Shown piece after piece: positions 12,595 to 54,940 of a stretch of 54,940 nucleotides of DNA (the first letter of the stretch is position 1; the number at the start of each line of letters is the position of its first letter). The position numbers and the translations under genes were made by a program. The notes beneath the pieces are model-generated. The model worked only from the letters and a program-made list of their open reading frames with translations. It searched no databases and was not told the DNA's origin. Source of the stretch: a virus; IMG/VR virus record IMGVR_UViG_3300037264_005663, positions 1 through 54,940 of that record; one strand, written 5' to 3'.

Positions 12595-12794
12595 TGGCCG
12601 CATGCGGTTCATATCCACGCACTGCTACTGTGTTGCGTGCTGCGATGGACGCGGCGGTGCGCAGGGAGATCACGCTGGCGTTGGCCCGTTACGCAGGGAG
12701 TATGAGCGAAGCCGCTCGGTATCTAGGAGTAACGAGGCCGGGATTATATGGAATGATGGCGCGGCTCGGGATGAGCAAAGATACCAACATCTGA
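12594..12794 (+). CDS. Fis-type helix-turn-helix protein
   Basis: The 66-residue protein has a Fis/NtrC C-terminal-type HTH at residues ~26-60: ITLALARYAGSMSEAARYLG followed by VTRPGLYGMMARLGM. This HTH_8 domain is the DNA-binding part of sigma-54 enhancer-binding proteins, but here it stands alone without an AAA+ domain. It could bind palindromic sites, and the tandem palindromes of the 47-52.6 kb regulon are natural candidates. That link is inferred. TAATG overlap with the previous gene. Confidence 0.7.
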   Translation: MAACGSYPRTATVLRAAMDAAVRREITLALARYAGSMSEAARYLGVTRPGLYGMMARLGMSKDTNI

Positions 12795-17077: not shown

Positions 17078-18741
17078 TCCATCGCGCCGGCGGATTCCCA
17101 AATCTCCCCTTCCCGTCAGCCCCTGACGACGATCCCTTCTCGGTAGTCCTGCCCGACGAGGTAGAATCCGACGACGACATCCTTGGCGAGTACGAGCGCG
17201 AAGCCGTTCGTGTTGCGCGTGTCGATCCCGTCACCTTCCTCGAGTACGCGTTCGACTGGAAGTGCTGTCCATTCCACGAAGAGTGGCAAGATTTCCTCAC
17301 CGAGAACAGGCGCGCGCAGATCTTTGCTCCTACCGAGCACGGCAAGACCGGCCAGATATCGCAGGGCCGGGTGCTGTGGGAACTCGGCCGTAATCCAAAC
17401 CTCCGAATAGTCATCGCCTCCGCCGGCTCGACACACGCCTCGAAACCGGTCGGGCTCATTAAGCAGGCCATCCAAGTCAATCCGCGCGTCAGGCGCGTAT
17501 TCCCATGGCTGCGGCGCGAGTCGGATCCCAACCGTATGCGGGCGTGGGGTACGACCAAAGTCATTGTAGCGCGCCCCGACCTCACCAACCGCGATTTCTC
17601 GCTCCAGGCCCTCGGCGTTCACGGTATCATCGAGGGCGCCCGCGTCGATCTCCTGGTACTGGATGATGTCCTCAACAATCTCAACACGGCGACCGCCGAG
17701 CAACGCGAGGCAGTTATCCAGTGGCTCAAGAGCACCGCCATCCCGCGAACGACTGTGCGCGCTCGAGTCTGGTCAGTCGGTACGCCGTGGCACATCGACG
17801 ACGCCATGCACTGGATAGAGAAGAATCCGGAGTACGTCTCCAAGCGTTACGACGCGGATGGCGGACTTTGGCCCGAACTCGTTATGTCTGAGGGCCAGGA
17901 ATACGGATGGCCCAAGTGGCGACTCGAGCAGCGCAAGAACGAAATAGGCACGCTCGAGTATAATCGCTGCATGCGGTGCCGCGCGCTCTCCGACGAAATG
18001 CGCATCTTCCAGGTGTCACACATCAACCGGTGCATCGAACTCAGCGGGAAGCGCGAATTCGCGAGAACCTATCGCGACAGCAGGCTTTATGTGGTGACCG
18101 GGCAGGACCTCGGACATCGAAAGAAGCGAAGTTCCAATGAGACGGTGCTTTTCACTGGTGGAGTCGATTTACAGACGGGGATTTACGAGACCATTTCCAT
18201 AGACAGCATCCGCGGCGAGATCGCCGATATTCTGCGCCTCATGATAGACGTCTACATCCGATATGCACCGCAGGAGTACGTGGTCGAGAACAACGCTGCC
18301 CAAGCATACCTCGAGCAATTCATACGACGCAAGGACGAGATCCTGCAGATCATCGGCGCCAAGGCCGACCCCAGGACCCCACAGATTCTGAATTTCCTGC
18401 GAATCATCCCGTTTACCACCGGTCGCCAGAAGGCGGATACCGAATTCGGAATCCGGGCCATGACCGCGGACTTCGAACACGCGCGATGGCGCGTTCATGA
18501 CAACGACCAGACCCACAGGTGGCGAGACGAAATGGACCGATATACCGAGACGTCACACCCGGGAGATCGGGTGATGGGTGGATGGTTCTGCTGGTGGCGC
18601 TTGCGTCAAAAGTCGCAACGGAGTAAGATACGGGTACTCAAGAGGTCAGGGGGACCACCAGATGGCCAGCAAGAAATCGGGGGGAGCACGCAAGACCGCG
18701 GAATCCAACCCCGCAGAATCCGCACCCTCCGGGCCAGGTAG
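17074..18741 (+). CDS. terL: Terminase large subunit
   Basis: The 555-residue protein has an ATPase domain with a deviant Walker A (APTEHGKT, 85-92), Walker B (VDLLVLDDV, 191-199) and a coupling motif (WSVGTPWH, 233-240). The nuclease domain has acidic residues in VTGQDLGHRKK (Asp345) and VVENNAAQ (Glu405). It cuts and pumps the genome into the procapsid through the portal. The last ~27 residues are encoded in a frame that overlaps the portal gene start. ATG at 17074 overlaps the previous stop. Confidence 0.93.
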   Translation: MIHRAGGFPNLPFPSAPDDDPFSVVLPDEVESDDDILGEYEREAVRVARVDPVTFLEYAFDWKCCPFHEEWQDFLTENRRAQIFAPTEHGKTGQISQGRVLWELGRNPNLRIVIASAGSTHASKPVGLIKQAIQVNPRVRRVFPWLRRESDPNRMRAWGTTKVIVARPDLTNRDFSLQALGVHGIIEGARVDLLVLDDVLNNLNTATAEQREAVIQWLKSTAIPRTTVRARVWSVGTPWHIDDAMHWIEKNPEYVSKRYDADGGLWPELVMSEGQEYGWPKWRLEQRKNEIGTLEYNRCMRCRALSDEMRIFQVSHINRCIELSGKREFARTYRDSRLYVVTGQDLGHRKKRSSNETVLFTGGVDLQTGIYETISIDSIRGEIADILRLMIDVYIRYAPQEYVVENNAAQAYLEQFIRRKDEILQIIGAKADPRTPQILNFLRIIPFTTGRQKADTEFGIRAMTADFEHARWRVHDNDQTHRWRDEMDRYTETSHPGDRVMGGWFCWWRLRQKSQRSKIRVLKRSGGPPDGQQEIGGSTQDRGIQPRRIRTLRAR

Positions 18742-20368
18742 CCGCGTGGTGGTCCCTCGACGGCTCAAGGCGTATACCGCAGGCGCCGGGCGGGGCGATC
18801 CAGGCCGCGGTGTCGGGCGGTCCCGGCAGGAACATGAAACGTGGGCCGGGCGCACTGGCGCCCCCTCTCTGGTGGAACCGCCGCTCGACCTCGCCGACCT
18901 CGCGGGGCTCCTCCTCGAAAGTACCGATTTCTCGGCCTGCGCATTCCAGATAGCCGCCGATACCGTGGGGCTGGGTTACGACCTCGAGGAGACGGAAACG
19001 GGGAAGGTCACTCCCAAGGACCAGATGGAGCGCGACCGCAGGGCGGTCAATGAATTCTTCGAGAATGCGCCTGGCGGACAGGACGAGGAGATGGCCGCCG
19101 GCGACGAGACACTCGAGCAGACGCTGACCTGCTCGGCTGTGGACTGGGAATCCGGCGGCAACGGCTACATCGAGATATCGCGTGACGAGGAGTACACGGC
19201 TGACGGTCTGTATCACCTCCAGGGCACGCGCATGCGAATCCGGAAGGACCGCCGCGGGTTCGCGCAGATAAGCCCCAGCCGTTCCAAGGTCGTCTGGTTC
19301 CGCAATTTCGGATCGCCAAAGGAACTCGGGGTTGACTGGCCGGGACGGTTCATCGCCCCCGATGAAGACAAGAGTATGCTGCTCAACGAGGTGCTGTGGG
19401 TTCGGCACTATCATCCGGCTAGCTTCTTCTATGGTCTGCCGCGCATCGTCCCTGCTATTTCTGCCGTGCGCGGGAACACGTTCTCCGCAGACCGCAATAT
19501 CAAATTCTTCTACAACAAAGCACTGCCGGAGATTGCGATTCTCGTTGAAGGGAACACCGAGACTGTCGGCGACGAGGACATGCAGGCATTTATCGACGAA
19601 ATCTGTGACCACTTTATGACGGAGCTCCAGGGCGAGCACTTCAAACCGCTCATTCTCCAGCTTCCGCAGGGCATCACGATCAAGATAGAGAAAATGTCGC
19701 CGGAGATGAAGGACGCCGACCACCGCACCTATCGAATCGACAACCGCGATGAAATTCTGCGCGCACACAATATGATGCCGAACCGGCTGGGAATCATCGA
19801 GTCCGGCAACTTGGGAGGCGGTACCGGCGAGTCACAGATCGAAATCTACAAGCAGAGTGTTACACGCCCTCGCCAGGGCATCTGGAATCGCAAGCTCACG
19901 CGTGTAATCGAGTTGGGCCTCGGCATCAAGACGTTGCGTTTCAAGTTGCGCGAAATCGACACCATCGACGAATCGCGCGAGGCACTCATCCTCCAGATCC
20001 TCGTGCTCACGGGGACCATGACGGTGAACGAAGCACGCAAATTCGCACGCGAGCGGCTCCAGGTGGAGTGGCTGGAGAAAATCGAAGACCAGTGGGCCGA
20101 CCTTCCGCTCCCTGTGATCCAGCCGCAACTTGCGCTTTTGCCGCTGGGCCTGGAATCAATAGAGCCCGTCCAGGACCCAACGGAACCCGTGGGTCCGCAC
20201 GCTCCATCGCTCGCCGGGGGGAAAAATGGACTCCTCCAGAGGATCCTCGTTGATGACGCCTACAAGCGCCTCGTGCGGAAGGTGGGTGGACGGACCGGAG
20301 GGAACGGTGCTGGTGGTGCCGTTCCGGAAGGCCGCACGCGCACGTCGTCGCACAACCGGTCTCGATAA
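18662..20368 (+). CDS. Portal protein
   Basis: The 568-residue protein carries the PBSX/HK97-type portal pattern: DWESGGNGYIEI, VLWVRHYHPASFFYGLPRIV, SADRNIKFFYNKALPEIAIL and NRLGIIESGNLGGGTGESQI. It forms the dodecameric vertex channel that docks terminase and the tail. ATG at 18662 follows GGGGGGACC. The first ~60 residues are low complexity, and the start overlaps terL by 80 bases. Confidence 0.92.
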   Translation: MASKKSGGARKTAESNPAESAPSGPGSRVVVPRRLKAYTAGAGRGDPGRGVGRSRQEHETWAGRTGAPSLVEPPLDLADLAGLLLESTDFSACAFQIAADTVGLGYDLEETETGKVTPKDQMERDRRAVNEFFENAPGGQDEEMAAGDETLEQTLTCSAVDWESGGNGYIEISRDEEYTADGLYHLQGTRMRIRKDRRGFAQISPSRSKVVWFRNFGSPKELGVDWPGRFIAPDEDKSMLLNEVLWVRHYHPASFFYGLPRIVPAISAVRGNTFSADRNIKFFYNKALPEIAILVEGNTETVGDEDMQAFIDEICDHFMTELQGEHFKPLILQLPQGITIKIEKMSPEMKDADHRTYRIDNRDEILRAHNMMPNRLGIIESGNLGGGTGESQIEIYKQSVTRPRQGIWNRKLTRVIELGLGIKTLRFKLREIDTIDESREALILQILVLTGTMTVNEARKFARERLQVEWLEKIEDQWADLPLPVIQPQLALLPLGLESIEPVQDPTEPVGPHAPSLAGGKNGLLQRILVDDAYKRLVRKVGGRTGGNGAGGAVPEGRTRTSSHNRSR

Positions 20369-21155
20369 ACCAGCCCGCGACCTCCAAGAGGACCTCGCGC
20401 GATCAGCGAGGATACTCCGCCGGGATGTCACCTCGCGGCTCGTCGGCGGTGGCGCCATCCAGCGCATCGCACGTCGTGCGGAGAAGGCGGCCGGCGACCG
20501 CGTCGTATTCCAGGAGACGGTGGACCTCGAGGGCATCTTCGAAGAGTATCGGTTGCGTGTGGCTGGCGACCTGAACGGCTCCGCGGTACGCTCCTACAAT
20601 CTCTCCGGCCAGAACACTCTAGTCACTCTCGGTGGCCGCGGTAATTTCGAGTTGCGAAACCCCAGGATACTTGCGGCGCTGGAGGAGCGCGCGAACATGC
20701 TCGCCGGCGGAGTGGTGGATTCCGTGTTCGATGGCATCCGCGACACCATACGAGTAGGGCTGTACGACGAGCGCAAGGGCGTGGAGGAGATAGCACGGCG
20801 CCTCAGTGACCGTTTCGACATCCTCGAGCGCAGCCGGGCGCGGATGATCGCCCGCACCGAGACCCTGGTGGCGATAGAGCGCGCCACGCAGGAGTCGTTC
20901 GTAGAGAACGGGATCGCCGAGAAACAATGGGCGGCGGCGATCCTGAATCCGACCCCACCGCGCCCCAGCCACATGGCGGCACATGGGCAGACAGTCCGGG
21001 TGTTGGAACCATTCAAGGTGGGGGATTCCAACCTCATGCACCCGGGAGACCCCGACGGGCCGGCGAAGGAAATCATCAATTGCCGGTGCGACGAACTCGC
21101 CATGATCCCCGAATTCCTGGATGTCACCGAGTTGTGGATGGGTGAAGCAGCCTGA
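20226..21155 (+). CDS. Mu F / SPP1 gp7-like minor head protein
   Basis: The ~309-residue protein has the head-morphogenesis signature RPSHMAAHGQTVRVLEPF, then HPGDPDGPAKEIINCRC near the C-terminus. Such proteins associate with the portal inside the procapsid. The start could be ATG 20226, or GTG 20307 after GGAGGGAAC, which would shorten the overlap with the portal gene. A 108-base gap with a possible promoter follows. Confidence 0.85.
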   Translation: MDSSRGSSLMTPTSASCGRWVDGPEGTVLVVPFRKAARARRRTTGLDKPARDLQEDLARSARILRRDVTSRLVGGGAIQRIARRAEKAAGDRVVFQETVDLEGIFEEYRLRVAGDLNGSAVRSYNLSGQNTLVTLGGRGNFELRNPRILAALEERANMLAGGVVDSVFDGIRDTIRVGLYDERKGVEEIARRLSDRFDILERSRARMIARTETLVAIERATQESFVENGIAEKQWAAAILNPTPPRPSHMAAHGQTVRVLEPFKVGDSNLMHPGDPDGPAKEIINCRCDELAMIPEFLDVTELWMGEAA

Positions 21156-42317: not shown

Positions 42318-42436
42318 TCTATCGGTGTCACCCCCATACCGGGCCATCAATCTGGGAGTTCCTGATCGTCCTCGCGGCATTGTTGGCTGTGGGGTCGCTC
42401 TTGGGTTGGCTGACTGGCAGGAAGATGTTCGGATGA
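42314..42436 (+). CDS. Small membrane protein in the glycan cluster
   Basis: A 40-residue protein with a transmembrane helix (IWEFLIVLAALLAVGSLLGW) and a short basic tail. ATGA overlaps on both sides. Could anchor the cluster's enzymes to the membrane, but this is a guess. Confidence 0.5.
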   Translation: MIYRCHPHTGPSIWEFLIVLAALLAVGSLLGWLTGRKMFG

Positions 42437-43929
42437 AGCCGGCGGTCTGCCTCATCACTCCACCGTCAACGTTCCTCCTCGACGAACGGGTTTTCGTGTC
42501 GTTGGGCATCCTGCGGGTGGCTGCGGTTCTCGAACGGGCCATGTTTCACGTGGAACATCTGGACCTATCGGGGATCGAGAATTACGAGGAAGCGGTGTCC
42601 GACTATGCCTCGCGCACTACAGCCACGGTTTTCGGGCTGACAGCCACGACGCCCCAGATGCCGGCGACCACCAAGATCCTGTCTCGACTGCGCCGGGGCC
42701 GTCCTGGCGTCCGGCTGGTATTGGGTGGCCCCCACGCTACTCTCGTCGCAGCCGCGCGCAGGAGAGAGGCCAAGGCGGGCACTCCGGGGCGGGCCACGGT
42801 CGCCTTCCAGAATATGTCTTCGTTGGTTGATGTGGTTGTCGCCGGCGACGGCGAGGGCGCCATATTCCGCGCTCTTGAGGATGAGCCACCGGCGTTCATT
42901 GATGCCGATGATCCGAAGTCTGATCTGTGGCTTACTGACGAATCTTATGAGACGTTGCCATTCCCGGCTCGGCACCTCGTGGACATGGACTCCTATCACT
43001 ATTCGGTCGAGGGAGAACGGGCAACCTCCATGATCGCGCAGTTGGGGTGCCCGTTCGAGTGCTCGTTTTGCGGCGGCCGGCTCTCCTCTATGTTGCGCAG
43101 AATCCGGACACGCAGCACTTGGTCGGTCGTCGCGGAAATTCGGCATCTCTTTGAAAGTTACGGTGTCCGCGGGATCATGATGTACGACGACGAGTTGAAC
43201 GTCAACAAACAATGCGTCCAACTCATGCGGGCCATCGCGGATCTGGGACGCGATCTAGGGATCGAGTTTAGGCTCCGCGGATTCATCAAGGCGGAACTGT
43301 TCACCGAGGAACAGGCCGAGGCCATGCATGCTGCGGGTTTCCGGTGGATCCTCGTGGGTTTCGAATCGGGATCGCCACGCGTGCTCACGAACATCAACAA
43401 GAAAGCCACACGCGAAGACAATTCGCGCTGCCTCGCGATTGCGCGCCGGCATGGGCTCAAGGTGAAGGCGCTCATGTCGATCGGTCATCCGGGGGAAAAC
43501 TTCGAAACAGTCCAACAGACGCGCGATTGGTTACTCGAGGAGAAGCCTGACGATTTCGACTGCACGGTGATTTCTTGCTATCCTGGGACTCCGTACTATG
43601 ATCACGCCATACAAACGTCTCCCGATGTCTGGACTTACACTGTGCCGCGCACCGGGGACAAACTGCACGCGGTGGACGTCGATTACAGTACCACCGCGGA
43701 CGCATACAAGGGAGTCCCAGGCGACTACCGCGCTTACGTTTTCACCGACTACTTGAGAAGCCAAGATCTAGTCGCCTTGCGTGATTCGCTCGAGTCCGAT
43801 GTGCGCAGGATTCTTGGGATCCCGTTCAACTCCGGCGCTCCTGGCGTGAGATATGAGGCCTCAATGGGACAATTTCCAGGTCATATTCTGCGTCACTCAA
43901 TAAACACTGGGGTGGCAGCGTGCGCGTAG
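42433..43929 (+). CDS. B12-binding-type radical SAM enzyme
   Basis: The 498-residue protein has an N-terminal cobalamin-binding-like Rossmann domain (VFGLTATTPQMPATTKIL, RLVLGGPHATL) and a radical SAM core with CPFECSFC (residues ~207-214, CxxxCxxC). Later come LVGFESGSPRVLTNINKKAT and SIGHPGENFE. Class B radical SAM enzymes methylate unactivated carbon or phosphorus atoms. Such an enzyme is rare in phages. Its neighbours suggest a modified sugar or glycan as substrate. Confidence 0.85.
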   Translation: MKPAVCLITPPSTFLLDERVFVSLGILRVAAVLERAMFHVEHLDLSGIENYEEAVSDYASRTTATVFGLTATTPQMPATTKILSRLRRGRPGVRLVLGGPHATLVAAARRREAKAGTPGRATVAFQNMSSLVDVVVAGDGEGAIFRALEDEPPAFIDADDPKSDLWLTDESYETLPFPARHLVDMDSYHYSVEGERATSMIAQLGCPFECSFCGGRLSSMLRRIRTRSTWSVVAEIRHLFESYGVRGIMMYDDELNVNKQCVQLMRAIADLGRDLGIEFRLRGFIKAELFTEEQAEAMHAAGFRWILVGFESGSPRVLTNINKKATREDNSRCLAIARRHGLKVKALMSIGHPGENFETVQQTRDWLLEEKPDDFDCTVISCYPGTPYYDHAIQTSPDVWTYTVPRTGDKLHAVDVDYSTTADAYKGVPGDYRAYVFTDYLRSQDLVALRDSLESDVRRILGIPFNSGAPGVRYEASMGQFPGHILRHSINTGVAACA

Positions 43930-46537: not shown

Positions 46538-46950
46538 AAATCACTCCGGCTATCGTTCACAAGAACTGGGGCCACGAGGAAATCGTGGTAAACGAGCGCA
46601 AAGCCGGATACTGCGGCAAAATCATGCGCGCGCGTCCTGGCCGGGCCTCGCGCATTGAGCGCCATCGCACCAAGGACGAGACATTCTACGTTCTCGATGG
46701 ATGTGTACGACTCGAGTTGTTCGAGAATTACGACGTTCCCGCGGTTCCAACCGATGCCATCGCGGGATCGTTGCCGGGACAGGGAGAATTCCACGGGAGG
46801 ATCGATCTTCAATCCGGCCAAGGATTCCGCATTCCTCCTGGTGTCTGGCACAGATTCGGCGCCATGGACCCAGGGACGCGGTTCGTCGAATTCTCGACCT
46901 TCCACGACGACGCCGACACCGAGCGCTGGGAGCCATCTAATGCGTGCTGA
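46534..46950 (+). CDS. Cupin protein, sugar isomerase-like
   Basis: A 138-residue cupin: NWGHEEIVVNERKAGYCGKI, then RHRTKDETFYVLDGCVRLEL and FRIPPGVWHRFGAMDPGTRF carry the two cupin motifs. Similar to D-lyxose/mannose-6-phosphate isomerase-like proteins, supporting a sugar pathway role. GTG 46534 overlaps the holin stop. The first 27-bp direct repeat overlaps its stop codon. Confidence 0.7.
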   Translation: MKITPAIVHKNWGHEEIVVNERKAGYCGKIMRARPGRASRIERHRTKDETFYVLDGCVRLELFENYDVPAVPTDAIAGSLPGQGEFHGRIDLQSGQGFRIPPGVWHRFGAMDPGTRFVEFSTFHDDADTERWEPSNAC

Positions 46951-47004
46951 CAGATCCAGTACGCATCTTTGCGTTCTCTGACAGATCCAGTACGCATCTT
47001 TGCG
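46947..47004 (+). repeat. Two 27-bp direct repeats, 4 bp apart
   Basis: An identical 27-bp unit beginning CTGACAGATCCAG and ending CATCTTTGCG occurs at 46947-46973 and 46978-47004 (period 31 bp). The first copy includes the cupin gene's stop codon. It lies just upstream of the first sigma-54-type promoter and could be a binding site or a recent tandem duplication. Confidence 0.75.
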
Positions 47005-47055
47005 CCCGTCAACCGGGTGCCTCGGCTCCAGCCCCCATCGCCCGCCCACGACCGT

Positions 47056-47158
47056 TCGCACCCTGCAATCGCCTACCCTTGCACGCTGCAATCCACATTA
47101 TCAGAATCCGCAAAAGATCACCACAGACGGCAAAAGATGATACTGGCATGAGGTATGC
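47056..47158 (+). promoter_or_regulatory. Sigma-54-type promoter P1 with tandem palindromic activator sites
   Basis: Sites TCGCACCCTGCAA (47056-47068, one mismatch to TTGCA-N3-TGCAA) and TTGCACGCTGCAA (47079-47091, perfect) have centres 23 bp apart. The -24/-12 element TGGCAT...ATGC has GG at 47145-47146, N10 and GC at 47157-47158. The proximal palindrome is 60 bp upstream of the GG. Gene 47199 follows with AAGGAG. Confidence 0.7.
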
Positions 47159-47198
47159 GATGTTTGGTTGTGTCTCGGGGAAACAAGGAGACCCTTCG

Positions 47199-47495
47199 AT
47201 GAGCACCAAGCAGAGCAAGACGACGACGATGGGGCAGTGCCCGGGTTGCTCCTCCACCCGCGGTCGTGAGACGGATGTCGTGGGTGTGTACGAATGCGCC
47301 AAATGCGGCGGCGTCGTCGGACAGTGCTACCGCGGCGATGCCTCGCGTTTCGTCGCCATCCATCAACCGATGCAGGCCGAGTGTGAAGACGGAGACGCGC
47401 GCTACTTCGACCTCATGCTCCTCGGATCTCAGGGAATCGAGCGCGTGCACGGATGGATGGACCGCAACACCAAACGGGTCGTGCAGTTCGGTTGA
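47199..47495 (+). CDS. Zinc-ribbon protein under P1
   Basis: A 98-residue protein with GQCPGCSSTRGRE and YECAKCGGVVGQC, a paired CxxC zinc ribbon. It resembles small transcription-factor-like zinc proteins. First gene after promoter P1, with a ~30-base leader. Function unknown. Confidence 0.65.
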   Translation: MSTKQSKTTTMGQCPGCSSTRGRETDVVGVYECAKCGGVVGQCYRGDASRFVAIHQPMQAECEDGDARYFDLMLLGSQGIERVHGWMDRNTKRVVQFG

Positions 47496-47568
47496 CAACT
47501 AACACCCGGGGCGCGCTACGGGGAGGCGCGCTCCGGGACGAGATGCGGCAGTTCAAGGCACGGTGCTA

Positions 47569-47589
47569 CGCGCGGGAGCGCGGGGGGTG
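47569..47589 (+). ncRNA. GGGA-loop hairpin with Shine-Dalgarno, copy 1
   Basis: Stem CGCGC (47569-47573) and GCGCG (47578-47582) around loop GGGA, followed by GGGGGTG (47583-47589) and a start codon 7 bases on. Same design as copies at 47812, 48186 and 48525. Confidence 0.55.
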
Positions 47590-47596
47590 GTGCGTG

Positions 47597-47809
47597 GTGA
47601 CTTCCTATGAATTGATCTGTGGAGCGGTGGAGGAGCGCGGGGGCGTGAGCATCTTTCATGAGCATGGTACGTACCATATCCGCTCGCGGCGCTGGCGCGA
47701 GGAGTTACCGGTGATACAATCGTGGTGGAGATGTTCACCTACTCTGCGTGAGGCTAGGCGTCATGCGGCGGAGATTCGGCGCGAGATGCGGCAGTTCGAG
47801 GCGCGGTAG
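47597..47809 (+). CDS. Small unknown protein behind hairpin copy 1
   Basis: A ~70-residue protein with GTG start at 47597 (or 47594). It contains GGVSIFHEHGTYHIRSRRW and a C-terminal Arg/Glu-rich helix. Its last codons (EMRQFEAR) form part of the region repeated upstream of the next gene, whose copy starts near 47541. Confidence 0.45.
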   Translation: MTSYELICGAVEERGGVSIFHEHGTYHIRSRRWREELPVIQSWWRCSPTLREARRHAAEIRREMRQFEAR

Positions 47810-47811
47810 GA

Positions 47812-47832
47812 CGCGCGGGAGCGCGGGGGGTG
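47812..47832 (+). ncRNA. GGGA-loop hairpin with Shine-Dalgarno, copy 2
   Basis: Stem CGCGC (47812-47816), loop GGGA, GCGCG (47821-47825), then GGGGGTG (47826-47832) and ATG 6 bases later. The upstream 35 bases also match copy 1 (GAGATGCGGCAGTTC...). Confidence 0.55.
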
Positions 47833-47838
47833 CGAGCG

Positions 47839-48042
47839 ATGACTAGGTTCTACGTTTCCCTTTGGCATGGTGAGGGCGGCAGCATCGCCACGGTTATTGA
47901 CCGTCAGGACGATGCTTGTCTGGGCTACTACAGCACGATCCGCGACGGGGCACGCTTCCGTGAGCTGGCCGACATTCAGGCTACCGCCCTCAATCGTGCT
48001 GGTGATTGTGGCACATTGGCCCCTAGGGTTTGGAGTAGCTAG
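47839..48042 (+). CDS. Small unknown protein behind hairpin copy 2
   Basis: A 67-residue protein (MTRFYVSLWHGEGGSIATVI, a mixed alpha/beta sequence). ATG 47839 sits 6 bases after GGGGGTG. No family recognised. Confidence 0.55.
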   Translation: MTRFYVSLWHGEGGSIATVIDRQDDACLGYYSTIRDGARFRELADIQATALNRAGDCGTLAPRVWSS

Positions 48043-48145
48043 CACCCGCCCCGTGGCGCTCGTGTCCCACCGACTAGGTGGCACTCCCAGCCCTGGCCCT
48101 CGCAGGCGCGCGGGGGCTGTGAGCGAGCGGCGGGATCCGGCCGGG

Positions 48146-48206
48146 GCGACCAGCGGCGCGGGGACTGGTCGCAACAACTTGAACAGCTGCGGGAGCAGCG
48201 GGGGTG
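48146..48206 (+). ncRNA. Two-hairpin RNA element, copy 3
   Basis: Hairpin A: GCGACCAG (48146-48153) and CTGGTCGC (48165-48172) around an 11-base loop CGGCGCGGGGA. After a linker with ACTTGAAC, hairpin B: GCTGC, loop GGGA, GCAGC (48186-48199), then GGGGGTG. Copy 4 at 48487 has the same loops and compensatory stem changes. The preceding gap also has a CCACC/GGTGG hairpin near 48070. Confidence 0.7.
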
Positions 48207-48210
48207 AGCG

Positions 48211-48474
48211 GTGCGATACGTCAAGGGAACGATGCTAACTGCTTCAGACCAGCGGCACGTACTAGCCGCCTACGTCCACCGATACACGCTGGAGCATGTC
48301 CCAGCATGGGCTCGCGCTCCACGTCCGAATGGATCGGCCTACCCCGTTCAGTTCGCCTCGGATCGGGAGTGGCTTGAGCATACGGTTTTCGCGGTCAAGT
48401 CCAACGGTAGTCTTGACGCTAGGGTTCGGGCTTGTCGCTCCACCCCGACATGGTGCGCATCGGTTACGGCCTAG
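48211..48474 (+). CDS. Small unknown protein behind RNA element copy 3
   Basis: An 87-residue protein from GTG 48211, 4 bases after GGGGGTG. Sequence features: MLTASDQRHVLAAYVHRYTL, and a Ser/Cys-rich C-terminus. No function assigned. Confidence 0.55.
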   Translation: MRYVKGTMLTASDQRHVLAAYVHRYTLEHVPAWARAPRPNGSAYPVQFASDREWLEHTVFAVKSNGSLDARVRACRSTPTWCASVTA

Positions 48475-48486
48475 CGGCCAGCCGGG

Positions 48487-48545
48487 GCGACCGGCGGCGC
48501 GGGGACCGGTCGCATACTTGAACGGGCCCGGGAGGGCCGGGGGTG
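48487..48545 (+). ncRNA. Two-hairpin RNA element, copy 4
   Basis: Hairpin A: GCGACCGG (48487-48494) with CCGGTCGC (48506-48513), the same 11-base loop as copy 3. Hairpin B: GGCCC, loop GGGA, GGGCC (48525-48538), then GGGGGTG and ATG 48553. Relative to copy 3, one pair in stem A changes A-U to G-C, and in stem B three of five pairs change on both sides. Confidence 0.7.
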
Positions 48546-48552
48546 CAAAGCC

Positions 48553-48804
48553 ATGACCGACATGATTCCGCCGATCGTTCACATGAACGGGACTTCACGC
48601 GAAGCGCTCGAGAAGCAGCTCCTCGATTTACACAAGTCGTTGCGCGCAACCAGTGAATGCCTGAGTCATGCGTGGCCGAACGGACGCGATTATTATCCCG
48701 AGCCGGGCCGCATGGATCGGGCGCTGCCCTGGTGGGTCGAACTCCAGGCGACGATCGGGAAGGCGATCCAAGACATCGAGGCGTGTCACGCGGAAATGGA
48801 GTAG
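48553..48804 (+). CDS. Conserved phage protein (IPPIVHMNGTS / RDYYP family)
   Basis: An 83-residue protein with IPPIVHMNGTSREALEKQLL and NGRDYYPEPGRM, a pattern I recognise from many phage small proteins of unknown function. It follows RNA element copy 4. Confidence 0.75.
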   Translation: MTDMIPPIVHMNGTSREALEKQLLDLHKSLRATSECLSHAWPNGRDYYPEPGRMDRALPWWVELQATIGKAIQDIEACHAEME

Positions 48805-48808
48805 AACG

Positions 48809-49393
48809 ATGCGAACGATCAAGACGAAATTCGCCGGCGAGTGCCGCAAATGTGGGGCGGATCTGGCCGTGGGCGTCGAGGTGGTGTACGAGCGACGGAT
48901 GGGAATCTTCTGCCCTGCCTGCGCCCCGACCGATCCCGAAGAGATCCGCTCCTATCGGCAGGAGGCGGCGGACCGCAAAGCCGATCGGCTCGACGGCTGG
49001 GCGGAGAAGCGCGAGGAGCGAGCCTCTGCCACCCTCAACAGCAATCCGGAAGTGCGGCGCGACTGGGCGTTCATCACACAGCCGGGGCGGATTCCGCTCC
49101 GCGAGAGGATGAATCGTGCGGATGACCGGGCGTGCGAGAGTCTCGGTAAAGCGCGCGAGATGCGCGGCCGTGCGGACAGAATCCGTAAGGTGCGTGTGGC
49201 CGGCGATGCGGAGCGCGCGCGCGAGGCCCATCGCGAGGAAGTGCGCGCGTGGATCGCCAAGGGGCAGCGTGTCTTCTGTCATCACTGGGGAGAGGGAACT
49301 GTCCAGCGTGTGAACCGCAAGACGGGAACCGTGCTCTGGGACAGGATCGCCAAGGCATACCCCGAACCGCTCGAGTGGCTGCAACGAGTCTAA
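48809..49393 (+). CDS. DUF3560-like protein with zinc-ribbon start
   Basis: A 194-residue protein: a zinc-ribbon-like N-terminus (ECRKCGADL, FCPACAP), a long charged helix (KREERASATLNSNPEVRRDW) and a region with GRIPLRERMNRADDRACESL, as in DUF3560 phage/plasmid proteins. It ends in a compact domain (GEGTVQRVNRKTGTVLWDRI). Function unknown. Confidence 0.6.
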   Translation: MRTIKTKFAGECRKCGADLAVGVEVVYERRMGIFCPACAPTDPEEIRSYRQEAADRKADRLDGWAEKREERASATLNSNPEVRRDWAFITQPGRIPLRERMNRADDRACESLGKAREMRGRADRIRKVRVAGDAERAREAHREEVRAWIAKGQRVFCHHWGEGTVQRVNRKTGTVLWDRIAKAYPEPLEWLQRV

Positions 49394-49402
49394 CCCTGGA
49401 TG

Positions 49403-49534
49403 TTGCAGATTGCGATGGTGTGCCGTTGCACCGTGCAATTTTCTCCTGTGGTCAGCCCGTGTGGTGCTCTCCGTGGGCTCTCCTGGGCGTTTCGCGTTGG
49501 CACACCAGTTGCGATGTTTCGTTGGTGTCCGGGG
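49403..49534 (+). promoter_or_regulatory. Sigma-54-type promoter P2 with tandem palindromic sites
   Basis: TTGCAGATTGCGA (49403-49415, one mismatch) and TTGCACCGTGCAA (49426-49438, perfect), centres 23 bp apart. TGGCAC-N5-TTGC with GG at 49499-49500 and GC at 49511-49512, a textbook -24/-12 match. Proximal site to GG: 67 bp. TTGGTGTCCGGGG (49522-49534) follows at the start-site region, inside a perfect 9-bp hairpin GTTTCGTTG/CAACGAAAC (49516-49543). Confidence 0.8.
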
Positions 49535-49563
49535 CAACGAAACGACGAACGCGGGAGACGACG

Positions 49564-49791
49564 ATGAACCAGTACCTGGGATACGAAGTCGAGTGGACCG
49601 ACAACGACGCGGCGCCGGCCATCTTCAAGGGTCCGCGTGGTGCGGTTTATGGTGCGATGCGCTATCGCGACTCCGAGTGGTGCTTCATCGTGGACCTCGG
49701 ACCTCGGACCCCTGGCGTGATCCGCTGGCTGAAGGGCAACGGCTCCGTCGAAATCCCGCGCGGAACTCACGAGATCACCCGCTCGCGGTAA
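49564..49791 (+). CDS. Small unknown protein, first gene under P2
   Basis: A 75-residue protein (YEVEWTDNDAAPAIFKGPRG, beta-rich, Trp/Arg-rich end) with a GGGAGACGACG ribosome site. No family recognised. Confidence 0.6.
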   Translation: MNQYLGYEVEWTDNDAAPAIFKGPRGAVYGAMRYRDSEWCFIVDLGPRTPGVIRWLKGNGSVEIPRGTHEITRSR

Positions 49792-49821
49792 CGATCGAAG
49801 ACCGAACAGGAGGACACCACA

Positions 49822-50001
49822 ATGAAGCTCTGTCACATCGCCGACACGGACCACTCAATCGAGACGGTCACTTTGAATTTGGACGACGGAGTGGAAGAGG
49901 TCGAGGTGCTGCGCGCATTCCTGTCAGCTCTCGGATGGGACGGACCATTCGATGGCGCGGGCGATGACTGGGAGCACGGAGCGACCGGGGGAGACGTCTA
50001 A
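49822..50001 (+). CDS. Small acidic protein
   Basis: A 59-residue acidic protein (DDGVEEVEVLRAFLSALGWD, ending DWEHGATGGDV) with an AGGAGG ribosome site. Its stop lies just before the copy-C promoter. Could be an acidic anti-host or DNA-mimic-type protein, but nothing confirms it. Confidence 0.6.
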   Translation: MKLCHIADTDHSIETVTLNLDDGVEEVEVLRAFLSALGWDGPFDGAGDDWEHGATGGDV

Positions 50002-50006
50002 ATATC

Positions 50007-50036
50007 TTGACGTTGGGGGACCAGTGGGGGTATAAT
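50007..50036 (+). promoter_or_regulatory. Sigma-70-like promoter, copy C of conserved phage promoter
   Basis: TTGACG (50007-50012) and TATAAT (50031-50036), 18-base spacer containing CCAGTGGGG, preceded by TATC. This is nearly the same as copy A at 4825, which drives the purZ unit. It gives a second, sigma-70-type entry to the genes after 50079. Confidence 0.75.
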
Positions 50037-50078
50037 CGAAGAGCCCACGGCGTCGGAATCACCAACAGAGGAGCACAC

Positions 50079-50342
50079 ATGACGACAGTCAACGTCAACG
50101 ATCTGCCGGTAGTCGAGCATTCGGCGATTGAGGCCGGGAAGGGATACGCCTACCGCCGAAGGCAACCCTGGAGAGACGGCCGCTTGTGGGGGACCGGTAC
50201 AGCCAAACTGACGCGGTGCTACAACTGGGACAGATCACACATGGTCATCCGCAGGGACTCTGGCGATTGGACGTGGTCGGACTTCGACGGTGAGAGGGAA
50301 ATCCGCGGTCCGATTCCTCCCGGGGTCGAGGTGGTCGAATGA
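50079..50342 (+). CDS. Small unknown protein, first gene after promoter C
   Basis: An 87-residue protein (DLPVVEHSAIEAGKGYAYRR, then TWSDFDGEREIRGPIPPGVE) from ATG 50079 after AGAGGAG. Probably a small beta protein. ATGA overlap with the next gene. Confidence 0.6.
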   Translation: MTTVNVNDLPVVEHSAIEAGKGYAYRRRQPWRDGRLWGTGTAKLTRCYNWDRSHMVIRRDSGDWTWSDFDGEREIRGPIPPGVEVVE

Positions 50343-50530
50343 AATCGCGACTCGAGCGCGAACTCGCGTCGTTCTTCAATCCAAAGAGAACAGCACAGGA
50401 CGACGAACGTTCACGAATCCGCACGGCCAACGAGCACGCCGACGCTGACGAGAAGTGTGGACGCGAGTGGTCCTGCACGTGTGCAGCGTGCCGGTGGTAT
50501 CGGCGCGAACTCAGTCTTGGAGGTCCATGA
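50339..50530 (+). CDS. Small Cys-containing protein
   Basis: A 63-residue protein; Arg/Glu-rich helix then KCGREWSCTCAACRWYRREL, a CxC...C cluster that could bind zinc. Coupled by ATGA upstream; it overlaps the next start. Confidence 0.55.
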   Translation: MKSRLERELASFFNPKRTAQDDERSRIRTANEHADADEKCGREWSCTCAACRWYRRELSLGGP

Positions 50531-50814
50531 TGACCGCTGAACAACGACGCGCGAAGCAGAAGGTTGTCGCCCTCGCGTGCAAGCTCGGAGCGACCCTCGA
50601 TTACGCCGGCGGTGAGATCAATGTCGAGGCTCCTCCTTACCACACGTGGAAGGAGAACCCAGGCGTCCATGAATTGGTGAACTCGCCATGGGATGATGAG
50701 ACGCAGGACGACCTCTGGGCCCGGGCCCTCGAGCGGATGGAATTCGGAGTCGAGCCGTGTACAATCCAAGAGTGCGAGTGGTGCGCAGACACGAGGGCGG
50801 AGGGTGTGTCGTGA
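50527..50814 (+). CDS. Small unknown protein
   Basis: A 95-residue protein from a double ATG (50527/50530). Sequence: TAEQRRAKQKVVALACKLGA, then DETQDDLWARALERMEFGVE, ending in a CEWCADT motif. GTGA overlap with the next gene. Confidence 0.6.
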   Translation: MMTAEQRRAKQKVVALACKLGATLDYAGGEINVEAPPYHTWKENPGVHELVNSPWDDETQDDLWARALERMEFGVEPCTIQECEWCADTRAEGVS

Positions 50815-51314
50815 GTTCACCAACCAACTACGAGAACGCCTTCCGCGCGGCCGCGGCGCTACTCGATGCGAGCGCCGAGGCCGGCACGCTGGCGTACGAC
50901 ACCCGCGAGCACGTTCGATTCATCATATCTGCCGGGGCGCACGTGGCCAGAGTGCACTGCGACGACGCAATATACTGTCGGTGGAAGGCCGCCGGCGAAT
51001 CGCTCATTGGATATCTCGACACGCTCACCATCTGGTACCAGAGCAGCCGTGTGGAATTCGCCAACGCCGACTGGCTCGAGCTTGCTGGATTCTGGCGCGC
51101 TCTGGAGGTGTGGGCGTTCGGTAAAGCCGACCAGCCGTGCATCAGATGTGCGGTTCGCCATGGTGTGTACGATCCAGACGACGTCACGGCCGGTAATCCG
51201 AATGATCGATACGACAGCGACCGCGGGTGCCCGGAGTGTGTGGCGGAGGTGCTGAGCGGACGTGGTGACCGAGCCGAACTCGAGCGTGATTACGCCCGCT
51301 CGCGGGGTGTCTGA
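50811..51314 (+). CDS. Unknown protein with zinc-ribbon-like centre
   Basis: A 167-residue protein from GTG 50811. It has a helical N-terminus (NYENAFRAAAALLDASAEAG), a predicted aromatic-rich middle (YLDTLTIWYQSSRVEF), and CIRCAVRHG...CPECVAEVL near the C-terminus, a zinc-ribbon pattern. Last gene before P3. No function known. Confidence 0.6.
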   Translation: MSSPTNYENAFRAAAALLDASAEAGTLAYDTREHVRFIISAGAHVARVHCDDAIYCRWKAAGESLIGYLDTLTIWYQSSRVEFANADWLELAGFWRALEVWAFGKADQPCIRCAVRHGVYDPDDVTAGNPNDRYDSDRGCPECVAEVLSGRGDRAELERDYARSRGV

Positions 51315-51320
51315 CTGACG

Positions 51321-51430
51321 TTGCACGCTGCAAGGTGGCGCGATTGCAGAGTGTAGTGCAGCGGTGTGTCGCACAGACGGAGGACCCTCCGAGAGTCAAC
51401 GTTGGCACATTGGTATGGCAAGAACCTTGC
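51321..51430 (+). promoter_or_regulatory. Sigma-54-type promoter P3 with tandem palindromic sites
   Basis: TTGCACGCTGCAA (51321-51333, perfect) and TTGCAGAGTGTAG (51344-51356, two mismatches), 23 bp apart. TGGCAA-N5-TTGC with GG at 51417-51418 and GC at 51429-51430. Proximal centre to GG is 67 bp. TTGGTGTATGGG follows 9 bases after the GC. A second TGGCAC at ~51402 lacks a correctly spaced GC. Confidence 0.75.
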
Positions 51431-51483
51431 GATTGTTTTGGTGTATGGGTGGTGGGGGCAGCCAGCAACGGAGGGAATCGGCG

Positions 51484-51753
51484 ATGAAGCTGAATCGAAT
51501 CAAGGTGATCACGGGCTACGCCGCACATGCGCGGTTCCTGGCCGAATGTGAGGACGAAGAATTCCTCATCCATCCGGTGGGAACGATCCCGCGACAGTCC
51601 CAGATTCCGAGCCCCTACCGCTATTCGCCGACGCACGATGTGCTCGGCTGGAATGGTCGGAAGGTGGTGATCGTCGAGACTCGCCATCGTCGCTACGAGG
51701 TGTTCGAGGTGATTGATGGAACGATCGATCCGTGGGAGGAGGGCTCGCTGTGA
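51484..51753 (+). CDS. Small unknown protein, first gene under P3
   Basis: An 89-residue protein (MKLNRIKVITGYAAHARFLA, then VVIVETRHRRYEVFEVIDGT) with an AGGGAATCGG ribosome site. Predicted beta-rich. TGATG overlap with the following gene. Confidence 0.6.
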   Translation: MKLNRIKVITGYAAHARFLAECEDEEFLIHPVGTIPRQSQIPSPYRYSPTHDVLGWNGRKVVIVETRHRRYEVFEVIDGTIDPWEEGSL

Positions 51754-52055
51754 TGAAGACCACAACGCAAATCTACGAGCAGCGCCAGCGGGTGTTCAGA
51801 CTCGCGATGTCAGTCGCCAGGGACTCCGCACATCGAGTGCATCCGGAGACGGGCGGCCAGGAACTCCTGGTCCACAACTGGGGGAATGCGGAATCCAAGG
51901 CGGCGTGGGCTCGTGGCTGGGATCGATGGCATCGGATCGCCGGCGCCTTTGACTCAGCGTACGACGCGGCGGAACACCGTAATCATGTGACGCGCGGATT
52001 CAAGCCGCACTGGTGCGAAGACTGTAAAAGCAGCCGGAAGGGGCGTGCATCGTGA
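51753..52055 (+). CDS. Small unknown protein
   Basis: A 100-residue helical protein (YEQRQRVFRLAMSVARDSAH) with CEDCKSSRK near the C-terminus. Overlaps both neighbours, so it is coupled within the P3 unit. Confidence 0.55.
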   Translation: MKTTTQIYEQRQRVFRLAMSVARDSAHRVHPETGGQELLVHNWGNAESKAAWARGWDRWHRIAGAFDSAYDAAEHRNHVTRGFKPHWCEDCKSSRKGRAS

Positions 52056-52267
52056 CCCACAAGGAGCGTAGGGCGAAGGGCGCGGCGGTTGCGTATTGGC
52101 ACAAGGCGACTGACGCGGAAAGGCAATTCCATCGCGACCGCGCGCGTCCCGGAGGATCCAGATTTACGGCCGGCTATGCACCGTGGGAACCGTTCACAGC
52201 GTACTTCTATGGCGTTGCCACTCGTGAGTTCGGCATCGCAGTGGGCGAGATCGCGAGGAAGTCATGA
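52052..52267 (+). CDS. Small unknown protein
   Basis: A 71-residue protein from GTG 52052, basic at the N-terminus (THKERRAKGAAVAYWHKATD), with YAPWEPFTAYFYGVATREFG. No family recognised. Confidence 0.5.
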   Translation: MTHKERRAKGAAVAYWHKATDAERQFHRDRARPGGSRFTAGYAPWEPFTAYFYGVATREFGIAVGEIARKS

Positions 52268-52455
52268 GCGAGCGTAACGCAGATCACCATGTAACGCTCC
52301 TGGTGTCTCGCGCACAGATTGACCGACTGGTGGAATCACTCGCGCCATCGGTGCTATGTGATACGTACGGCCTCGGTCCAGAGGCCCAGGCAAACCCGCT
52401 GTTCTGGCAGGCACTAGAACGGCGCGCGCGCATGGAGGTCCTGCGCCGCGATTGA
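52264..52455 (+). CDS. Small unknown protein, last gene of P3 unit
   Basis: A 63-residue protein (HHVTLLVSRAQIDRLVESLA, FWQALERRARMEVLRRD), mostly helical. ATGA overlap with the previous gene; the distal P4 palindrome begins right after its stop. Confidence 0.55.
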   Translation: MSERNADHHVTLLVSRAQIDRLVESLAPSVLCDTYGLGPEAQANPLFWQALERRARMEVLRRD

Positions 52456-52587
52456 TTGCGGCTTGCAAGGTACTGCCATTGCGTGTTGCACGATATCGCA
52501 CGGACGGCCACGGGGATGCCGCTTCCGTGGCCACGGAAGGCGTTATTCACTGGCACGGCGCGTGCAATACGTAATTGGTGTCCGGGG
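52456..52587 (+). promoter_or_regulatory. Sigma-54-type promoter P4 with tandem palindromic sites
   Basis: TTGCGGCTTGCAA (52456-52468, one mismatch) and TTGCGTGTTGCAC (52479-52491, two mismatches), 23 bp apart. TGGCAC-N5-GTGC with GG at 52552-52553 and GC at 52564-52565. Proximal centre to GG is 67 bp. TTGGTGTCCGGGG (52575-52587) is identical to P2 and at the same 11-base offset. The unit leads to the helicase gene. Confidence 0.75.
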
Positions 52588-52620: not shown

Positions 52621-52839
52621 ATGACGAGCAAAGACGTTGAGACTTTCGCCTTCGAGCGGTCACAGGGAAGGAAGCCGCGGGGTCGTGGATGCTGGGCGTT
52701 CACCTTCGATTCGACATCGTACAGGGACGTTTCGGAGGTTTGGTTCGCGCCCGGGTCGATGCTCTACCAGGAAGCCAAGAAACTCGCGGTCGCCGAGGGG
52801 AATCGGCGCGGCGCTCACTTCGCGATGGTGCAGCCTTAG
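52621..52839 (+). CDS. Small unknown protein, first gene under P4
   Basis: A 72-residue protein (CWAFTFDSTSYRDVSEVWFA, YQEAKKLAVAEGNRRGAHFA) from ATG 52621, after GGGAGACGAGACG, the same leader end as P2. Short inverted repeats (GCCTCG/CGAGGC and CCGCGCG/CGCGCGG) fill the 66-base gap that follows. Confidence 0.6.
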   Translation: MTSKDVETFAFERSQGRKPRGRGCWAFTFDSTSYRDVSEVWFAPGSMLYQEAKKLAVAEGNRRGAHFAMVQP

Positions 52840-52905
52840 CCTGCCTCGAAACCCGAACGAGGCCCAACGCCGCGCGCCCGCCCCGCGCGGAGAAAGAACA
52901 CGACG

Positions 52906-53139
52906 ATGGCCACGCAAGAACAGATACTCGCAGCGCAGCGCGAGGAGACTCGATACATCGAACTCCTACGCGAGGCCGACGCAATCGGAACGCGGTGCCG
53001 CGAGTGGGCGCTCGCGACGAATCCGAAACGGGGCGACTGGGAACTCGATCTCATCGAGCGTGCGGCGCGATCTGCGGCGGGTGACATGGCGGCACGGGTC
53101 AAAGCGAAGGGCTACCTGCGATCGGAGGTGTCACGATGA
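52906..53139 (+). CDS. Small helical protein
   Basis: A 77-residue Ala/Arg/Glu-rich helical protein (ILAAQREETRYIELLREADA). ATGA overlap with the next gene. No family recognised. Confidence 0.55.
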   Translation: MATQEQILAAQREETRYIELLREADAIGTRCREWALATNPKRGDWELDLIERAARSAAGDMAARVKAKGYLRSEVSR

Positions 53140-53387
53140 AGATTCCCATTGGCAAATACCACGAACTCGAGGACTTCGGTCCCTCCACTGGACGTTCTGA
53201 TTTCCAGACTGAGTACGTCATGGGAATCGCACAGCGCTCGGACTTCGATTTCTACTGCATGGATCCGATGTGCGACGGTCAGTACAAGGGCCCGTTCAGG
53301 TTGATGTTCTATACCAAGGACGGCGCCCTGCACGCGCACTGGGTCGGGGTCCGCAAGGTGCTCAATACGGCCGTGGCCGCGGACTGA
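53136..53387 (+). CDS. Small unknown protein
   Basis: An 83-residue protein (YHELEDFGPSTGRSDFQTEY, FYCMDPMCDGQYKGPFRLMF). Coupled by ATGA; it ends 7 bases before the helicase start. Confidence 0.55.
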   Translation: MKIPIGKYHELEDFGPSTGRSDFQTEYVMGIAQRSDFDFYCMDPMCDGQYKGPFRLMFYTKDGALHAHWVGVRKVLNTAVAAD

Positions 53388-53394
53388 TGCGGAG

Positions 53395-54940
53395 ATGAGG
53401 CTCCTGTTCAACGGTGGGCGGTTCGAGTTCGCCTGCCACTACGAGGACCGCTTCGTCCCCAAAGAGGCGGGGTTCCGCTGGGACAAAGTGGCGCGCGTGT
53501 GGTACACCGATAACCAACGCAACGCATCGCGGCTCATCGAATACGCGAGTGACGACTACGTTCGGTCTGTGCTCGAATCGGTGCGCGAGGAGGTGGCCGA
53601 GGCCGTCAATATGTCGAGCGCGGCGGACGCCGACATTGAGATTCCGGCGCCGGCAGGCTACGAGTACATGGGCTTCCAGCGCGCTGGGATTGCGTTCGCA
53701 CTCCGGCGCAAGGGGACCCTCATCGGCGACGAGATGGGGCTTGGCAAGACCATCCAGGCCATCGGAGTCATGAACGCCGACGTGGCAACCCACCGCTCCC
53801 TCATCATTTGCCCAGCATCACTCAAACTGAATTGGCAGCGCGAACTCGGCCGCTGGTTGGTACGGCCGACTATGGTGTGCCTGGCCACCCCCAAGGAGTT
53901 CCCGCGGCTCGAGCCCGACTGGCCGAAGCGAGACGCCGTGGTGATCGTGAATTACGACGTCCTATACAAGCACGAAAAATGGATTCGCGCGGTGGAGTGG
54001 GACCTCATCGTGGCTGACGAAGCTCACTACATCAAGAATCCGAAGGCGCGGCGGTCGCGCGTGCTCCTGGGCTACCGTGGCAACCCAGCGATCAAGGGTG
54101 CGAGAGGCCCCTGGATTCCAGGTATCGACGCGCGGCGGGTGATCTTCATGACCGGGACTCCCATCGTGAACCGCCCAAGTGAACTCTGGTCGATCATCCA
54201 CAGGCTCGATTCCGAGACTTGGAGATCGTGGCGAGACTACGTCGTACGCTACTGCGGATTCACGCGGAACCGGTGGGGCAGCGATGTCAGCGGTGCGTCG
54301 AATCTCGATGAGTTGCAGATGAAGCTCCGCTCCAGTGTCCTGGTGCGCCGCCTCAAGAAAGACGTGCTGAAGGAATTGCCGGCGAAGCGGCGCCAAGTCA
54401 TCGAAATTCCGGCGACTGTCGAGACGCAGCACCTCGTGGCGCGCGAGCGTGCGGCCATCGCGGCCAACGAGGACCGAATTCTGCAGCTCAAGATCGCGGT
54501 GGAGTTGGCCAAGGCATGTGAGGATGACGAGGCATATCGCGTAGCGGTGCGCGCGATGTCCCGCGGGATTATGACGGATTTCACGGAGATTTCGAAGTTG
54601 CGCCACCAGACGGCATTGGCCAAAGTGGGCGACGTCATCGAGCACCTGAAGGAGTTGGTTGACGAGGAGGGCGTCAAGGTCGTGTGTTTCGCACATCACA
54701 AGGATGTAATCGCCCAGATCGCCGGCGCCTTCAAGGGTAAGTCGGTCGTGCTCACCGGCGACACCTCACTCGAGGATCGCCAGCGCGCGGTTGATCGATT
54801 CCAGAAGGACGGGGCTATCCGGCTCTTCGTGGGATCGATCACTGCCGCGGGCGTGGGACTCACGTTGACGGCGTCCTCTAGTGTGGTGTTCGCCGAATTG
54901 GACTGGGTTCCCGGGAACGTGACACAGGCCGAGGATCGCT
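53395..54940 (+). CDS. SNF2-family helicase (SMARCAL1/HARP-like), 3' end cut by window
   Basis: The frame from ATG 53395 stays open to the window edge (515 codons). It has an N-terminal HARP-like region (FACHYEDRFVPKEAGFRWDK), Walker A (GDEMGLGKTIQAI), the DEAH box ADEAHYIKNPKARRS, motif III (FMTGTPIVNRPSELW) and motif V-like (VGSITAAGVGLTLTASSSVV). SNF2 helicases of phages aid replication or recombination, possibly fork remodelling. GGAG lies just before the start. It belongs to the P4 unit. Confidence 0.9.
   Translation, partial: MRLLFNGGRFEFACHYEDRFVPKEAGFRWDKVARVWYTDNQRNASRLIEYASDDYVRSVLESVREEVAEAVNMSSAADADIEIPAPAGYEYMGFQRAGIAFALRRKGTLIGDEMGLGKTIQAIGVMNADVATHRSLIICPASLKLNWQRELGRWLVRPTMVCLATPKEFPRLEPDWPKRDAVVIVNYDVLYKHEKWIRAVEWDLIVADEAHYIKNPKARRSRVLLGYRGNPAIKGARGPWIPGIDARRVIFMTGTPIVNRPSELWSIIHRLDSETWRSWRDYVVRYCGFTRNRWGSDVSGASNLDELQMKLRSSVLVRRLKKDVLKELPAKRRQVIEIPATVETQHLVARERAAIAANEDRILQLKIAVELAKACEDDEAYRVAVRAMSRGIMTDFTEISKLRHQTALAKVGDVIEHLKELVDEEGVKVVCFAHHKDVIAQIAGAFKGKSVVLTGDTSLEDRQRAVDRFQKDGAIRLFVGSITAAGVGLTLTASSSVVFAELDWVPGNVTQAEDR

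Follow-up and report, generated by a model that had tools for sequence, protein, structure and literature searches.

Four leader regions on a viral DNA record, termed P1 to P4, combine a tandem pair of TTGCA-N3-TGCAA palindromes with a downstream GG-N10-GC element of the -24/-12 type. The record, IMG/VR entry IMGVR_UViG_3300037264_005663, comprises 54,940 bases at 60% G+C and was analysed over its whole length, which we refer to as the window; by its encoded proteins it belongs to a tailed phage. P1–P4 are probably sigma-54-dependent phage promoters run by a LuxO/NtrC-type activator of the host, which would switch four operons together.

Architecture of the four leaders

All leader elements lie on the + strand. 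In P1, the distal palindrome (TCGCACCCTGCAA, positions 47056–47068, one mismatch) is centred at about -108 and the proximal one (TTGCACGCTGCAA, 47079–47091, perfect) at about -85; the -24/-12 element TGGCATGAGGTATGC follows at 47144–47158, with a predicted start near 47170. P2 carries TTGCAGATTGCGA (49403–49415, one mismatch, centred at about -115), TTGCACCGTGCAA (49426–49438, perfect, about -92) and the -24/-12 element TGGCACACCAGTTGC (49498–49512, predicted start near 49524), which has the top sigma-54 score in the window. The sites of P3 are again centred at about -115 (TTGCACGCTGCAA, 51321–51333, perfect) and -92 (TTGCAGAGTGTAG, 51344–51356, two mismatches), and its -24/-12 element TGGCAAGAACCTTGC spans 51416–51430 (predicted start near 51442). 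In P4, TTGCGGCTTGCAA (52456–52468, one mismatch, about -115) and TTGCGTGTTGCAC (52479–52491, two mismatches, about -92) precede TGGCACGGCGCGTGC at 52551–52565, which places the predicted start near 52577.

An earlier, sequence-only reading of this DNA had described eight palindromes, two per leader, and all are present at the positions it gave: three are perfect, three carry one mismatch and two carry two. Their centres are 23 bp apart in all four leaders. The distance from the proximal centre to the GG, likewise as claimed, is 60 bp in P1 and 67 bp in P2–P4, which corresponds to a gap between the proximal site and TGGCA of 52 bp and 59 bp, respectively. The same reading reported a TTGGTGT/TTGTGT sequence shared after the GC; the sharing is real, but the sequence lies 9 bases (7 in P3) after the GC rather than 11 (9 in P3), a constant offset of 2. 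The predicted starts coincide with this shared sequence, and the first ATG is found 29–44 nt downstream. Enhancers are expected some 80–150 bp upstream of a sigma-54 promoter, a range that includes the centres of both palindromes of each leader (about -85/-92 and -108/-115).

For the -24/-12 elements we used our own weighting of the published sigma-54 consensus. On this scale, the four leader elements are the top four scores of the record on both strands. Within the extended TGGCAYR-N4-TTGCW consensus, GG-N10-GC was judged by TGGCA-N7-TGC, which all four leaders contain and which has no other match on either strand of the record. The stricter TGGCAYRNNNNTTGCW consensus is matched by none of the four, each being off by one or two positions. 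No sigma-70-like promoter was found in the leaders. The sole good + strand site of the region, TTGACG-18-TATAAT at 50007, is located inside the P2 gene group and could drive the last four of its six genes; the P2-group genes therefore need not all depend on sigma-54.

Pairing and geometry against chance expectation

Tandem pairs were scanned for with at most three mismatches in total and a spacing of 14–60, using 200 dinucleotide shuffles as a control. The window holds four such pairs, all at spacing 23, compared with none at that spacing in the shuffles and a shuffle mean of 0.025 at any spacing. A tandem pair followed by a -24/-12 element, present in four of four leaders, did not occur in any shuffle, which bears out the claim that the arrangement is very unlikely to be due to chance. 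The proposed comparison of motif density with shuffled sequence separates the two levels of organization: the paired arrays stand out, whereas single palindromes with up to two mismatches show no enrichment (18 versus 16.0 expected). Single TGGCA-N7-TGC matches number 4 in the window, against a shuffle mean of 2.1. The signal is pairing and fixed geometry, not single motifs.

Conserved elements and diverged spacers

Mean pairwise identity among the leaders is 0.67–0.72 for the palindromes, 0.63 for the -24/-12 element and 0.48 for the predicted-start region, but only 0.29–0.32 for the spacers and 0.29 for the upstream flanks, compared with a base-composition background of 0.27. The spacers have diverged to background, so we are not looking at one freshly copied leader. 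The leaders drifted independently and retained the enhancer, promoter and start region, the pattern expected of functional constraint. It is accordingly very improbable that P1–P4 arose by mobilization or duplication of a single leader, with incidental elements: although P2 and P4 have TTGGTGTCCGGGG and ACGCGGGAGACGA near the start codon in common, only the elements are retained against spacers and flanks at background identity, and the genes downstream of the leaders are dissimilar to each other.

LuxO-like sites and their occurrence in cellular genomes

The palindromes resemble the published 13-bp LuxO enhancer TTGCAWWWTGCAA, which occurs in pairs upstream of sigma-54 qrr promoters (PMC10162802). 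Three phage sites match the 13-bp form TTGCA-N3-TGCAA perfectly and the other five with one or two mismatches. The central triplets of the eight palindromes (CCC, CGC, GAT, CCG, CGC, GAG, GCT and TGT) lack the A/T character of LuxO sites. Because the half-sites are the same but the centres are G/C-rich, we classify the phage palindromes as LuxO-like rather than strict LuxO sites.

Across 257 Gb of genome sequence from bacteria and archaea, the combination of a 23-bp tandem and a downstream -24/-12 element was matched five times, where a simple uniform-base estimate predicts about 0.2 by chance. One match (L138) is a Vibrio luxO/qrr1-type locus, identified by a LuxO model score of 858 bits. Two arrays (L134 and L137) are located directly behind a gene pair for a kinase and an NtrC-family response regulator, one (L135) is followed after a short distance by the gene for a LuxO-like regulator (525 bits) and one (L136) precedes a gene for a PEP-CTERM-like protein. 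The signature thus lands where sigma-54 control would be expected. The array is rare in genomes, any tandem version being present in 3 of 399 Pseudomonadota genomes and the 23-bp version in 1 of 61 genomes of the genus Vibrio, which makes four copies within 5.5 kb of a phage remarkable. Taken together, the leader geometry, the match to the LuxO enhancer and the LuxO/NtrC-type loci reached by the genome scan argue for sigma-54 promoters with tandem enhancers, and we consider the sigma-54 reading of P1–P4 well supported at the sequence level.

Elsewhere in the cellular genomes, divergent sigma-54-type promoters with three common TTGCA-N3-TGCAA sites (L172/L175; G484 contig 2, 155735–155926) were seen between two genes that, as judged by eye, are a polysaccharide-export-like gene and a gene for a haem NO-binding-domain-like protein.

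A host regulator as the probable activator

Sigma-54 promoters need an AAA+ activator, which is ATP-driven and answers to a signal; otherwise they are silent. The corresponding domain, Sigma54_activat (PF00158), was not found in the 54.9-kb record. Because the required activator is absent from the record, the phage probably responds to a host regulator, and a host activator is the simplest reading. The sequence-only reading had proposed control by host RpoN and a bacterial enhancer-binding protein or, alternatively, by the Fis-type helix-turn-helix (HTH) protein of the phage. Sigma-54, the tandem enhancers and the host enhancer-binding protein hold up, the last by inference from the missing domain, while control by the phage HTH has lost ground.

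In the model we favour, RpoN-containing host RNA polymerase would form a closed complex at the GG-N10-GC element. The two palindromes, 23 bp apart and centred at about -85/-92 and -108/-115, would be occupied by a host enhancer-binding protein of the NtrC family with LuxO-like DNA specificity; after oligomerising, this protein would loop across to the promoter and use ATP to open the complex. In this way, the four neighbouring early-region operons, which consist of small genes and close with a SNF2-type helicase in the fourth, would be on together only while the host regulator is active.

The phage HTH protein is real: it is a stand-alone HTH_8 protein of 66 amino acids encoded at 12594–12794 (+ strand), which does not in itself imply membership of the regulon. 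Its only NCBIfam match is to the DNA-binding end of PrsR (TIGR02915 positions 396–444 of 445, E value 1.2e-8), in agreement with a PrsR-type C-terminal HTH domain. It does not qualify as a PrsR response regulator: at 66 amino acids it is devoid of receiver and AAA+ domains, and its score of 34 bits falls short of the family cut-off of 503. The recognition helix of the protein, VTRPGLYGMM, is similar to that of a true PrsR (ITRPTLYALL, L161) and is unlike those of activators encoded beside TTGCA-N3-TGCAA sites (VSPSTIYRKL, VSPSTLYRKR and INKTTLWRKL). Given this PrsR-like helix, and given that the predicted PrsR site ends in TTTACA (PMC1569441) and is unlike TTGCA-N3-TGCAA, the phage HTH is unlikely to recognise the palindromes. 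PrsR was rejected as the activator on the same difference in motif. Alone, the phage HTH should not open sigma-54 complexes; it may act as a competitor of a host regulator elsewhere.

These observations bear on the idea that the palindrome pairs are operators of a different regulator, such as the 66-aa HTH protein or a repressor, acting at ordinary promoters or by anti-activation in competition with the host activator, with the HTH as key controller whether or not the -24/-12 match is occupied. That the phage encodes such a protein speaks for it, as does a viral contig of 39% G+C (L003) in which a perfect tandem TTGCA pair occurs with no -24/-12 element behind it. However, a sigma-54 element follows all four arrays at a fixed distance, the leaders lack sigma-70-like promoters and the HTH helix points to a different site, which together make operators of this kind unlikely. 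L003, the one perfect tandem pair found in viral contigs, lacks a -24/-12 element, and we treat it as unrelated.

A second alternative retains the sigma-54 promoters but assigns their activation to a phage-encoded AAA+ enhancer-binding protein in a missing part of the genome. The record is linear, its right end cuts the helicase gene and a simple check revealed no terminal repeat, so it is a fragment. Against this, PF00158 is lacking in 54.9 kb, as it is in 42 further viral records where a palindrome precedes a -24/-12 element; many of these are fragments, and neither an AAA+ activator nor an HTH_8 domain is encoded in any of them. We consider a phage-encoded activator quite improbable.

Several points weigh against the reading of P1–P4 as sigma-54 promoters activated by a host protein. 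As the record is a linear fragment, an activator gene could sit past its ends. The P1 spacing is 7 bp less than that of the other leaders, which is no whole helical turn. No second phage with a 23-bp tandem and -24/-12 array was found in viral contigs, leaving no between-phage footprint, and the nearest relative by helicase (49% identity), the 68-kb record G001, has no arrays and shares only the helicase and one small gene.

If several operons are indeed placed behind sigma-54 promoters without an activator of the phage's own, part of the phage programme would be conditional on the regulatory state of the host. This would tie host signalling to phage gene expression in a concrete way, and the DNA signature could be used to find more such phages.

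Genes behind the promoters and the phage record

The genes behind the four promoters are on the + strand. About five small genes follow P1, the first of which (47199–47495) encodes 98 amino acids with a weak zinc-ribbon resemblance under the Pfam cut-off. Six small genes lie behind P2 (49564–51314) and four, overlapping or abutting, behind P3 (51484–52455). The P4 group (52621–54939) consists of three small genes and a SNF2-type phage helicase (phrog_62, 4e-90) truncated by the end of the record. None of the first genes tested behind the promoters gave an informative family match. Just upstream of P1, at 46950–47005, the 27-bp sequence CTGACAGATCCAGTACGCATCTTTGCG is present in two copies with four bases between them, the first overlapping a terminator-like site at 46940–46966.

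Elsewhere, the record encodes a replication-initiation protein, terminase large subunit, portal, head-maturation protease and tape measure. Sequenced phages contain only remote relatives of the terminase large subunit, at about 24% identity, so the phage is from a poorly sampled lineage. As clues to the host, the terminase large subunit, RNA ligase, helicase and a capsid-region protein gave only distant matches, to phages of many hosts. A 540-aa protein encoded at 5515–7137 joins an N-terminal kinase-like AAA domain to an adenylosuccinate-synthetase domain (Pfam, 3.7e-55) and may be a PurZ-type enzyme acting in modified-purine metabolism. A B12-binding radical SAM protein is encoded at 42433–43929, among the genes that separate the tail region from P1.

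Related signatures in other phages

A palindrome followed by a strict sigma-54 element was found in 32 stretches of viral sequence, compared with 17 in the opposite orientation and 1 for a reversed-letter palindrome, a soft control as it contains CpG. Clustering reduced the contrast in orientation to 19 versus 12 groups, and in several records the palindrome is merely the junction of two facing -12 boxes. The clearest cases of a separate enhancer are L126 and eight records of one phage group (L104, L021, L047, L120, L027, L084, L105 and L121), in which the sites precede a conserved small gene. We regard generality across phages as a lead only. It is conceivable, if still doubtful, that several unrelated phage lineages combine sigma-54 promoters and LuxO/NtrC-type enhancers without encoding an activator themselves; host signalling (quorum, nutrient or stress) would then decide operon expression, here of four operons at once.

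The viral records behind L032, L009/L078, L079, L049 and L043/L045 contain as many as ten perfect -24/-12 elements each (TGGCAYR-N4-TTGCW), arranged in arrays (G030, 20238–20416; G012, 77431–77746 and 79197–81440; G031, 17516–18155; G013, 2042–2476). Two such elements often face each other, giving an inverted repeat of about 35 bp (TGGCAYR-N4-TTGCA-N1-3-TGCAA-N4-YRTGCCA); the reversed pattern was seen in 0 of 32 records.

Comparison with known systems

The PrsK/PrsR PEP-CTERM regulon resembles the phage leaders in its sigma-54 promoter and an enhancer about 63 nt upstream, and it is the DNA-binding end of PrsR that the phage HTH resembles most. The regulon differs in its TTTACA-ending motif, and the window yielded no site of the TGTAA...TTACA type. 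The proteobacterial loci L134–L137 share the array itself, which adjoins NtrC-family regulators or a PEP-CTERM gene and consists of tandem TTGCR-N3-TGYR at 23 bp with TGGCA-N7-TGC 55–66 bp further; unlike the phage, each genome has a single array, serving cellular genes. Vibrio qrr promoters, under sigma-54 with LuxO or SypG, likewise have two 13-bp enhancers per promoter upstream of -24/-12 (PMC10162802). In contrast to the phage leaders, they drive chromosomal small-RNA genes, and a 23-bp spacing is unusual in Vibrio; the middle triplet of the phage sites is not A/T-rich, and the phage has no luxO. In vibriophage VP882, the host LuxO circuit of LuxO–OpaR quorum sensing influences the phage (PMC11315295); the abstracts make no mention of sigma-54 promoters on the phage itself.

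Pseudomonas phage YuA (Yuavirus) is also a tailed phage with operons read from -24/-12 promoters, three high-activity promoters being annotated '-24/-12 consensus' in its record AM749441. The YuA promoters differ in lying in the structural and lysis region and score poorly on our sigma-54 scale, whereas all four promoters described here are in a small-gene region beside the helicase and have tandem enhancers. According to Ceyssens et al. 2008, the YuA promoters reportedly depend on host rpoN. As a carrier of the same enhancers YuA was rejected, since a scan of 49 kb revealed no TTGCA-N3-TGCAA site with at most one mismatch. The literature searched, mostly excluding subscription journals, yielded no phage regulon with tandem LuxO-type enhancers. 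Sigma-54 phage promoters are already known from YuA; tandem LuxO-type enhancers on a phage regulon appear to be the new part.

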